From: Alkalicella caledoniensis
Lineage (GTDB): Bacteria > Bacillota > Proteinivoracia > Proteinivoracales > Proteinivoracaceae
DNA: 64,000 nt
NCBI RefSeq assembly: GCF_014467015.1
Contig: NZ_CP058559.1
Location: forward strand, 2,852,001 to 2,916,000
Direction: 5' to 3'
Positions 40,610-44,101 of the stretch are shown one piece after another. The notes beneath the pieces were generated by a model that worked only from the letters and a program-made list of their open reading frames with translations, made no database searches and was not told the DNA's origin. Position 1 is the stretch's first letter, and each line of letters begins with the position of its first letter. Both the position numbers and the translations under genes were made by a program.

Positions 40610-40882
40610 TCAAGCCTTACCGGGTCTCCAACGCTTAAGTGTTGGAAGTTGTTCTTCCAACATTTTTCTGGCCTTTTCAGCAGAAATTCCTTCCTTAACC
40701 ATGAAAGGGATGCAGGTCTCAATCATCTCTTCCATTGTTTCGTCCACCTTATTAAATCTGCCGTTCACGTAGCAGTACTTACAATAATCTTCACTTTTAC
40801 TGCCATCTGCATTTAGCCCATACATTTCATCTGTTTGCCCCATTGGCATTCCACAACTTTGACAAAATTTCATACTTTCCAT
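40610..40882 (-). CDS. Small zinc-ribbon protein (Zn_ribbon_2-like)
   Basis: A protein of about 90 residues. The first half has CQSCGMPMG and, after a short loop, DYCKYCYVNGRF: a four-cysteine zinc ribbon of the putative 'Zn_ribbon_2' family. The second half is an amphipathic helix (ETMEEMIETCIPFMVKEG...AEKARKMLEEQLPTLKRW), typical of this family. The ATG at 40882 follows GGAGGGTGG. It is downstream of a WYL/HTH regulator gene on the same strand, with two perfect inverted repeats between them, so it is a likely target of that regulator. Function is unknown. Confidence 0.8.
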   Translation of the reverse strand: MESMKFCQSCGMPMGQTDEMYGLNADGSKSEDYCKYCYVNGRFNKVDETMEEMIETCIPFMVKEGISAEKARKMLEEQLPTLKRWRPGKA

Positions 40883-40897
40883 TTTTCCACCCTCCAA

Positions 40898-40935
40898 AAT
40901 AAGATCATATTTAGCACAATTGCTATGATCTTATT
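40898..40935 (-). promoter_or_regulatory. Inverted repeat upstream of the zinc-ribbon gene, copy A
   Basis: Perfect 12-base arms aataagatcata and tatgatcttatt have a 14-base loop, ending 16 bp before the zinc-ribbon start codon. Confidence 0.6.
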
Positions 40936-40940
40936 CTACT

Positions 40941-40976
40941 ATTCCTAATATGACAACTGTTTGTCATATTAGGAAT
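40941..40976 (-). promoter_or_regulatory. Inverted repeat upstream of the zinc-ribbon gene, copy B
   Basis: Perfect 16-base arms attcctaatatgacaa and ttgtcatattaggaat with loop ctgt overlap the stop codon of the WYL regulator. There is no T-run on the minus strand, so it is an operator or an mRNA stem more than a terminator. Confidence 0.6.
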
Positions 40977-41862
40977 AATTTTCTAAGCTTTTTTTCATTC
41001 GATCTACAAGTATATCTTTGATATGTGGTGGCTCTAAAACCTTGGCATAATTTCCAAACGATAGAAGATAGCCGTAAACCCATTCGTCTTCTACAAAGTT
41101 CATAGTTACAGTGTATGTATCATCATCATTTTTAACAATATCCTTTTCATCAAACTCATCATAAACTCGGTAGGATTGGGAGCTATCTACTTTAATAACT
41201 ATTTTCGTTGACTGAATAGTAACTTCTTTAGAAGCAGAGATATTGGGAAAATCCTTTTTTTCAAAATGTTCATTAGTTCCCTCTATGTTCTGGATTCTAT
41301 TCAATTTAAATACACGGAAATCATCCTTGTTGAGACAGAATGCTTTAAGGTACCATGTCTTGTCTTTGAACCATAAAGTAATGGGTTCAACTGTTCGCCT
41401 GCTTGAATCTCCATTTTTGTTATAATAGTTAAAATGTAGTAATGTTCTATTTACAGTAGCTTGTTTGATGGTTTCAAACACTGTTTTCTTAGTGTCACTC
41501 CAATCAGAATAATCAACTTCAATCCAGTTCAATGAGTCGATACCAAAAACGGTACTAAGTTTTGACAAAGTGTTGTTTGTAGATGAAGCATTTACTGCAT
41601 TTAGACTTTGAAGTGCTGACAAAATATCATTTTTCTCACTGTCCGATAGAATTGTTTTATTTAGGACAAACTCAGGCAATAGACTAATACCTCCACCATT
41701 GCCACGAGACATGTAAATAGGTAAACCCGTAGCTGATAACGTCTCCACATCTCTATAGATAGTCCTAATGGATACCTCGAATTTTTCAGAAAGCTCTTTA
41801 GCAGTCACGTTTTTCCGGTTTAGCAGTATGTAAATGGTTTCAAACAAACGATTAAGTTGCAT
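40969..41862 (-). CDS. HTH/WYL-domain transcriptional regulator (YafY type)
   Basis: A protein of about 297 residues. The N-terminal HTH_11 winged helix is MQLNRLFETIYILLNRKNVTAKELSEKFEVSIRTIYRDVETLSATGLPIYMSRGNGGGISLL, and a WYL domain follows (about 130-270: TLHFNYYNKNGDSSRRTVEPITLWFKDKTWYLKAFCLNKDDFRVFKLNRI). WYL domains are thought to bind small ligands or nucleic acid. The longer frame has an unrelated N-terminus. ATG at 41862 follows GGGGTGAT. Two inverted repeats lie between it and the downstream zinc-ribbon gene. Confidence 0.9.
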   Translation of the reverse strand: MQLNRLFETIYILLNRKNVTAKELSEKFEVSIRTIYRDVETLSATGLPIYMSRGNGGGISLLPEFVLNKTILSDSEKNDILSALQSLNAVNASSTNNTLSKLSTVFGIDSLNWIEVDYSDWSDTKKTVFETIKQATVNRTLLHFNYYNKNGDSSRRTVEPITLWFKDKTWYLKAFCLNKDDFRVFKLNRIQNIEGTNEHFEKKDFPNISASKEVTIQSTKIVIKVDSSQSYRVYDEFDEKDIVKNDDDTYTVTMNFVEDEWVYGYLLSFGNYAKVLEPPHIKDILVDRMKKSLENYS

Positions 41863-41919
41863 ATAATCACCCCACTTTATTATATCTGAATTATCAATCC
41901 ATGATAAGAGCCCAAATAA

Positions 41920-41956
41920 CTGTAGACAAGGCTTTAGCCTTGGGAACCACAAAACC
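41920..41956 (+). repeat. Dispersed hairpin repeat, CAAGGCT stem
   Basis: ctgtag is followed by acaaggctttagccttgg and gaaccacaaaacc. It corresponds to the copy at 4676-4710. Confidence 0.6.
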
Positions 41957-42075
41957 ATCCCACAACCCTCTCAAAAAATTCCGTGAAAGGGTCAATGCAT
42001 TAACTAATAATTGTACTAACTTACGTAAAAAATAAGGTGACTTTTCAAACCATATCAAATGATAGGAGAACTAAT

Positions 42076-43057
42076 ATGACTAAACTTAACAAAATAAATA
42101 ATCCCATACTTTTCCAGGGAAATATAAATAACAATCACTATTTCGAAGGTTGGTATTATAAACAAGTAAGCGCTAATACCAACAAAATAATCTCCTTCAT
42201 TCCTGGAATTAGCTTAAACCCGTCAGACTCCCATAGCTTTATCCAGGTCATCGTATCGCCACCAGTTAAAACCTATTACTTCAGATACCCAATTGAAGCA
42301 TTTAATGCATCTGACCAACCCTTTGAAATAAATTGGGAGAAGTTCATTTACTGAAAGAGAAGCGAAAATTAACCTTGTAAACGAAAATATATTAATTGAG
42401 GGACATCTTACATACGGCAATTTTTCTAAAATAAACACTTCTATTATAAATCCAAATATAATGGGGTGTTTTGCGTACATTCCTAAGATGGAGTGCAACC
42501 ATGGTGTAATAAGCATGGATCATTCAGTAAATGGTCGCTTAAAATATGGAAATACTCACTTAGAGTTCTTAAACGATCGCGGCTATATAGAAAAAGACTG
42601 GGGATCCTCATTCCCAGAACAATACATCTGGATTCAAGCAAATAACTTTGAAAAACAAGGTGATAGCTTTATGTGTAGCATCGCAAAAATCCCCATGTTA
42701 GGGGTGAAATTTAACGGTCTAATAGCTAACCTTCATCATAATGGAAAAGAATACCGCTTTGCCACATACAATAACTCAAAAATATTAGAAATATCCCATA
42801 ACAAAGATGGTGTATCACTAAAATTAAGCAAAAAGGATATAAAACTCTTCATCCATGCAATTTTTGACACAAAAGGAAGCCTTAAAGCACCTACTAAAGG
42901 GACAATGTCTAACACTATAAAAGAAGGCCTAGGTGGTAAAATAAGTCTTACACTTACCCAAAAGGGAAAAACAATGGCCGAAATCACTAGTCCATATGCA
43001 GGCATAGAAATAGTAGGCTACGGTACAGAAGTTACAGATAGAAAACTTAAAATATAA
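42076..43057 (+). pseudogene. Tocopherol-cyclase-like protein gene split by a frameshift
   Basis: Two frames join into one protein of about 326 residues. The first (from ATG 42076, preceded by TAGGAG) begins TKLNKINNPILFQGN with HYFEGWYYKQV, the typical start of the tocopherol-cyclase-like lipocalin-fold family. It stops at a TGA near 42352. The next frame, from about base 42343, continues without a gap: SFTEREAKINLVNENILIEGH, then FAYIPKMECNHGVISMDHSV, DRGYIEKDWGSSFPEQYIWIQAN (with the family Trp-Gly-Ser pattern), and ends with AGIEIVGYG. One extra base (probably a T at about 42342) shifts the frame. No stop or gap separates the halves otherwise, so it is either a recent mutation or a base-call error. 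Confidence 0.75.
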
Positions 43058-43126
43058 AGCAGGAAATATATATTATAAAAGTGAATAACTATAATAACAA
43101 CTAATTAAGATAAGAGGTGATACCCA

Positions 43127-44101
43127 TTGTCTAATTTAAAAGTAGCTTCATCAGCCAAGGTCATAGGACAAGCCCTCTTTGGAAAAGGTGTCTATATAGC
43201 CCAAGGGGCAGTTGTGAGATCAGAAAATAATAGTGTTCAATTAGGCAACCATAGCTGGGTGCTAGAAAATAGCACTATAATCGGGACACAAGACAACCCT
43301 GTGATAGTAGGTAGTAAAACAGTGTTCGGCCACAAATGCGTAGCTATAGGTGCTCAAATCGGTGACTTGTGTGAAATAGGAAACGGAACAATTTTTATGC
43401 CTGGCTGCAAAGTAGGAGATATGTGTATAACAGGTGAAAGCACCATCATACCCTCGGATATGATAATCCCCGATGAATCGGTGGTAGTGGGGAGGCCTGC
43501 CCGGATTATTCGAAAACTAACTGAACAGGACAAAGAAAGAATAAAAACCTTAAGGGGCAACAATATCACAATAATGCCTTTTGAAGAGGGAATTCTTGAT
43601 ATAAAGAGACAGGACGGTGACAAAATGAGTAAACTCCATGAAGTAAATGGGAAATTCCCAAATATAAGCAGCAGTACAAAAGTTCACCACTCAGCAGAGA
43701 TTAACGGCGATGTTATAATAGGAGATGATTGCGTTATAGGTCCTGGAGTAAAAATTATAGGAGATACCCATGGACCAGTAAGGATAGGAAACAATGTACA
43801 GATATTAGAAAACTGTGTACTGCACCTCTTGCCAGATAACGAACTGATAATAGAAGACAACGTAATCATAGGTCCAAGCTCAATAATTCATGGCACAGTA
43901 ATAGGACATGGGACCATTATAGAATCAGGAGTAAATATCAGTGACTATAGTAAGATAGGCATAAATTGTATGGTAAAAGCTGGGAGTTTAGTAAAACAAA
44001 GAAGTGAATTCCCAGACAATAGTATTATCGAAGGATTTCCAGCAAAAAAGCTAGGAACACTCGAAACCAAGCAAACTACTCCCCCTTGGGTTTATAAATG
44101 A
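43127..44101 (+). CDS. Tandem gamma-carbonic-anhydrase-like hexapeptide protein
   Basis: A 324-residue protein with two left-handed beta-helix domains (about 1-150 and 175-315). Each has hexapeptide repeats and the N/V-Q-x-L-E-N region of gamma carbonic anhydrases. In the second half H233 and H255 match Cam His81 and His122, but position 250 (His117) is Pro. In the first half H69 matches His117, while residues 52 and 74 (His81, His122 equivalents) are Ile. The two halves therefore carry complementary ligands. In Cam trimers the zinc is held by two ligands from one subunit and one from its neighbour, so a fused dimer could rebuild a full site. The TTG start follows GAGGTGAT. Confidence 0.8.
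   Translation: MSNLKVASSAKVIGQALFGKGVYIAQGAVVRSENNSVQLGNHSWVLENSTIIGTQDNPVIVGSKTVFGHKCVAIGAQIGDLCEIGNGTIFMPGCKVGDMCITGESTIIPSDMIIPDESVVVGRPARIIRKLTEQDKERIKTLRGNNITIMPFEEGILDIKRQDGDKMSKLHEVNGKFPNISSSTKVHHSAEINGDVIIGDDCVIGPGVKIIGDTHGPVRIGNNVQILENCVLHLLPDNELIIEDNVIIGPSSIIHGTVIGHGTIIESGVNISDYSKIGINCMVKAGSLVKQRSEFPDNSIIEGFPAKKLGTLETKQTTPPWVYK

Follow-up and report, generated by a model that had tools for sequence, protein, structure and literature searches.

A single two-domain gene in the window (the whole stretch of 64,000 nucleotides that was analysed) probably encodes both of the unlike subunit types of a heterotrimeric metalloprotein of the gamma-carbonic anhydrase (gamma-CA) type, with the composition D1.D2.D2 and one metal site. 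Here D1 and D2 are the N- and C-terminal domains of the encoded protein, and the case for this reading is drawn from sequence comparison. We give about even chances to the fuller statement of a self-contained bacterial system, in which one gene, by using an internal start, would produce the two kinds of subunit and also fix their ratio in a gamma-CA-type metalloenzyme that must be heterotrimeric and has exactly one metal site, lying between domains. The coordinates of the gene, its putative products and the residues discussed below are collected in Table 1.

Table 1. Layout of the two-domain gene in the window, with residues placed by their equivalents in Cam.
Feature	Position in window	Strand	Basis or remark
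Two-domain gamma-CA-like gene	43127..44101	+	TTG start, 324 aa; homology, 37 homologues
Shine-Dalgarno AGAGGTGA of full-length product	43113..43120	+	Sequence; anti-SD energy -7.1 kcal/mol
Domain D1, residues 1-142: left-handed beta helix and C-terminal helix	43127..43552	+	AlphaFold2; helix 133-142
R31 (Cam Arg59 position)	43217..43219	+	Kept in D1 only, 36/37
I52 (Cam His81 position), D1	43280..43282	+	Ile/Val/Leu in 36/38; never His
H69 (Cam His117 position), D1	43331..43333	+	Invariant, 38/38
I74 (Cam His122 position), D1	43346..43348	+	Ile/Leu/Val/Met in 37/38; never His
Hypervariable linker	43553..43624	+	Median pairwise identity 25% vs 61% for whole protein
Internal Shine-Dalgarno GGTGA, 4 nt 5' of internal ATG	43616..43620	+	Anti-SD column strength
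Domain D2, residues 167-324; proposed separate product from ATG 43625 (M167)	43625..44101	+	
H215, His of D2 "HGP" loop, adjoining Asp61 position	43769..43771	+	Invariant, 37/37
E228 (Cam Asp76 position), D2	43808..43810	+	Invariant Glu; candidate partner of R31
H233 (Cam His81 position), D2	43823..43825	+	Invariant, 37/37
P250 (Cam His117 position), D2	43874..43876	+	Invariant Pro, 37/37
H255 (Cam His122 position), D2	43889..43891	+	Invariant, 37/37

The sequence-only reading had described the open reading frame as two gamma-CA-like halves, and this description stands. Both halves match gamma-CAs of the PDB by sequence (E down to 2e-26), and the protein matches the PaaY model at 140 bits and the NF050158 "gamma carbonic anhydrase" model at 157.1 bits, against a curated cut-off of 250 for the latter. 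AlphaFold2 models the window protein as two beta-helical domains (mean pLDDT 92.1, pTM 0.90) joined by a linker in which residues 161-166 fall below a pLDDT of 50. The model has the beta-helix fold of the gamma-CAs, whose chains Foldseek superposes with an rmsd of 0.6-0.8 A across some 145 residues; each Foldseek match spans one half only, and no solved structure of a tandem chain is among them. A second homologue was modelled with a pTM of 0.92, and these two values together indicate that D1 packs against D2 in cis in a defined way, as far as predicted models go. In a tree, the D1 sequences group in one clade and the D2 sequences in another, each with support of 100/100, which is consistent with a single, old pairing event. 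Within D1, C82 and C100 (43370-43426) are kept as Cys in at least 97% of family members.

In gamma-CAs the metal sites are directional: one subunit gives His81 and His122, and the next subunit gives His117. We placed these positions by alignment with five canonical gamma-CAs, including one from the same genome (G000:C1:2777834-2778313), and compared the window gene with 37 homologues, whose pairwise identity lies mostly near 60% with a minimum of 34%. The alignment returns the same six residues that had been assigned from the letters alone, and neither subunit type carries all three His ligands, which are complete when D1 and D2 are taken together. The idea that the two halves complement each other into one ligand set is borne out across distant homologues, in which the complementary losses are strictly kept, even in the most divergent family members. 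Variation among the ligand positions is confined to the two of D1 that lack His, with Glu and Lys at position 52 in two divergent homologues and Arg at position 74 in one.

A second feature, R31 of D1, had escaped the earlier reading. In gamma-CAs, Arg59 pairs with Asp76 across the subunit interface, and Asp76 touches the His81 equivalent (PMC8000050); from this we infer that Arg59 and His117 come from the same subunit. The Arg59 position is Ile or Val in D2, and the Asp76 position is an invariant Glu in both domains. D1 would thus present an Arg59/His117 face and D2 a His81/His122 face, so that two independent features point to the same directed interface. As far as sequence can carry it, an interface at which D2 gives His81 and His122 while D1 gives His117 and Arg59 is strongly supported, and with it the earlier proposal of one site at one kind of interface. 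What the family displays is the pattern of a one-site heterotrimer, with unlike subunits and ligands that are complete at one directed interface only.

The same evidence bears on the view that these are two decayed, non-catalytic scaffold halves, comparable to the gamma-CAL part of CcmM, that lost their ligands by chance. The loss of the catalytic Gln75 from both halves speaks in its favor. The remaining ligands, however, are invariant in 37-38 sequences though much of the protein has diverged, and the losses are the same in all of them. Given this invariance and the matching Arg asymmetry, we reject chance decay, and we consider the scaffold view hardly credible.

With respect to catalysis, a more careful wording is needed. 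In D1 the Gln75 position is always Leu (37/37); in D2 it is Leu in 35/37, the rest having Met or Gly. The position of Asp61 is variable in D1 and Asp or Asn in D2. The label "gamma-CA" can therefore be retained for the fold, as seen by AlphaFold2 and Foldseek, and not for the catalytic residues, Gln75 and the Asp61 of D1 being lost. Given these losses, we limit our claim to a putative metal site, with CO2 hydration unproven; with Gln75 gone, rapid hydration of CO2 may be beyond this protein.

The loop around H215 in D2 follows the pattern G-[DN]-x-H-G-P, and this His might serve as a proton shuttle or an alternative ligand. It is also the basis of a different arrangement, in which D2, free or fused, would form a metal site of its own at D2-D2 interfaces, H215 of one D2 standing in for His117 beside H233 and H255 of the next and leaving D1 a regulatory or structural role. 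H215 is indeed invariant, and it lies two residues past the Asp61 position, near that of Cam Glu62. Such an arrangement nevertheless leaves two things unexplained, namely the invariant H69 of D1 at the exact His117 position and the retention of R31 in D1 only, and we regard it as distinctly improbable.

If the metal site lies where D2 faces D1, one must still ask how a chain of two domains fills a trimer of three places. Here the start of D2, which the sequence-only reading overlooked, becomes important. The codon of M167 is a start codon in 36/37 fused genes, as ATG in 35 and as GTG in the single start-bearing gene that departs from Met; a divergent homologue (L064) has no internal start. The predicted pairing with the anti-Shine-Dalgarno sequence 5' of this codon is the strongest of 348 columns across 24 aligned genes (mean -8.65 kcal/mol, against -2.8 +/- 1.7 kcal/mol for all columns). 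The internal Shine-Dalgarno is as strong as that of the primary starts, with a mean of -9.06 for 36 genes vs -8.01. When codons were shuffled synonymously with the protein held fixed, the mean was -6.65 +/- 0.33 and 0/1000 shuffles were as strong as the internal site, a significance that is overstated because the homologues are kin. In the first such test, with 23 genes, z was -5.4 for the internal site and went no further than -3.1 among control columns that do not overlap it, values that are descriptive for the same reason. The window's own GGTGA is moderate at -7.8 kcal/mol and is equalled by 9% of its synonymous shuffles. The family thus has the conserved internal start codon with Shine-Dalgarno that characterizes a gene within a gene.

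A relative from the Sporomusa order (G107) has D1 and D2 as separate ORFs in different frames (L046:1501-2019 and L046:1997-2506), which overlap by 23 nt, and its D2 ORF begins at the same Met as the internal start; this split may also be an assembly frameshift. Two lines of evidence suggest that D2 is also made as a free polypeptide: an internal start codon that is conserved along with its Shine-Dalgarno, and the occurrence of two separate genes in G107. By the same evidence the earlier claim that the heteromeric protein consists of one chain is probably wrong. Descent from an ancestral gene pair might account for part of the conservation of the internal start.

We therefore propose the following scheme, in which metal binding, the translation of free D2 and the trimer stoichiometry are all things that we infer. 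Initiation at 43127 would give the D1-D2 chain, and initiation at the internal Shine-Dalgarno and ATG would give free D2; one chain of each kind would together occupy all three positions of a gamma-CA trimer, in the composition D1.D2.D2. Free D2 would explain how a three-fold trimer is built from a two-domain chain. Since gamma-CA sites are directional, metal would be held only where D2 faces D1, by H233, H255 and H69 and flanked by the pair R31-E228. The D2-to-D2 interface would lack the third ligand, having P250 in its place, and the D1-to-D2 interface would lack all ligands, so that a single metal site per trimer is predicted.

The fused chain could in principle suffice, if three D1-D2 chains made two trimers (D1.D1.D2 plus D1.D2.D2, or a stack). 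Every three chains would then have at most two D2-to-D1 metal sites, and the internal start would be a relic of two ancestral genes. Neither the complementary ligands nor the confident in-cis packing predicted by AlphaFold2 require a free D2. A relic start, however, is unlikely to retain a Shine-Dalgarno above the synonymous expectation, and equally unlikely to persist in 36/37 genes inside a linker of 25% identity. We consider assembly from the fused chain unlikely, and prefer the D1.D2.D2 trimer that uses both products.

Fused homologues were found by contig scan in Sporomusa malonica, Anaerospora hongkongensis and Clostridia/Tissierellia assemblies, at 53-63% identity. By profile search, the family is present in 20/249 genomes of the order of L021, 14/198 of the order of L022, 3/28 of the Sporomusa order and one further genome of a phylum-wide sample; about 7-8% of the sampled genomes from the two Clostridia-like orders carry the gene. 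Within the window's own phylum (a sample of 299 genomes) the window's genome is the sole carrier, and it may thus have acquired the gene horizontally. No intact unpaired D1 or D2 was found by the family profile in about 1,200 genomes. Lutispora saccharofermentans (L026 4369-6306) has a D2 remnant without D1, which starts from residue 222 and is fused to unrelated sequence. Genes for a YafY-like regulator and a zinc-ribbon protein lie beside this remnant and also near the window gene (window 40610-41958). At window 42037-43057 there is a tocopherol-cyclase-like gene that is apparently broken: its N-part ORF covers 42037-42354, and its C-part ORF, which has a PF14249 match, covers 42461-43057.

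No conserved operon partner was seen in 25 neighbourhoods; the commonest neighbour class besides the gene itself is that of generic ABC ATPases, at 9/25 loci and in scattered positions. Could the third place instead be taken by the cell's canonical stand-alone gamma-CA, as D1.D2.CA? Such a protein is encoded elsewhere in 29/38 carrier genomes, including that of the window. The two genes are unlinked in the window's genome, however, and 9/38 carriers show no separate canonical gamma-CA at E <= 1e-18, some of these assemblies perhaps being incomplete. We give this composition a very small probability and, as an obligatory third subunit, reject the stand-alone protein on the strength of those nine carriers. 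Given the lack of conserved neighbours at the 25 loci and of another gamma-CA in the nine carriers, the two-domain gene system appears self-sufficient.

Some comparisons with known systems are helpful here. The protein shares its fold and its ligand positions with Cam, CamH, PaaY and YrdA (9qev, 3vnp), and R31 and E228 would form a putative counterpart of their Arg59/Asp76-type interface pair. The canonical gamma-CA is a homotrimer with three full sites, whereas here the ligands are split between domains, Gln75 is lost and Asp76 is Glu. A close parallel is the CA/CAL heterotrimer of plant mitochondrial complex I, which has one working site and is encoded by separate genes (PMC7567890, PMC7447434). 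There, likewise, subunits have lost different ligands and Zn is possible at one interface; the plant proteins are part of complex I, whereas here the subunit types are fused in one bacterial gene and no complex I partner is seen. CcmM of beta-carboxysomes also comes in a long and a short form, M58 and M35 (PMC8580825), the short product being without the gamma-CA domain; the short product proposed here is itself gamma-CA-like and could join the trimer. Cas11d from cas10d and RpnS (PMC10327210) are examples of genes within genes in which the short product associates with the long form, the same principle in proteins unrelated to D1-D2. In the literature searched, which covered few subscription journals, we found nothing relevant on fused or tandem bacterial gamma-CAs, nor the combination of fused complementary halves with an internal start.

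Should the proposed scheme be true, it would matter for annotation: as the reading frame runs through as a single long protein, a gene caller would report the full-length product only and miss the second. Gamma-CA heterotrimers with one surviving site are described, in the literature searched, only for plant mitochondrial complex I, and a stand-alone bacterial version encoded by one gene would offer a simple system in which to ask why such trimers keep one site. Internal translation would then be this family's answer to the symmetry problem of fitting two domains into three places.
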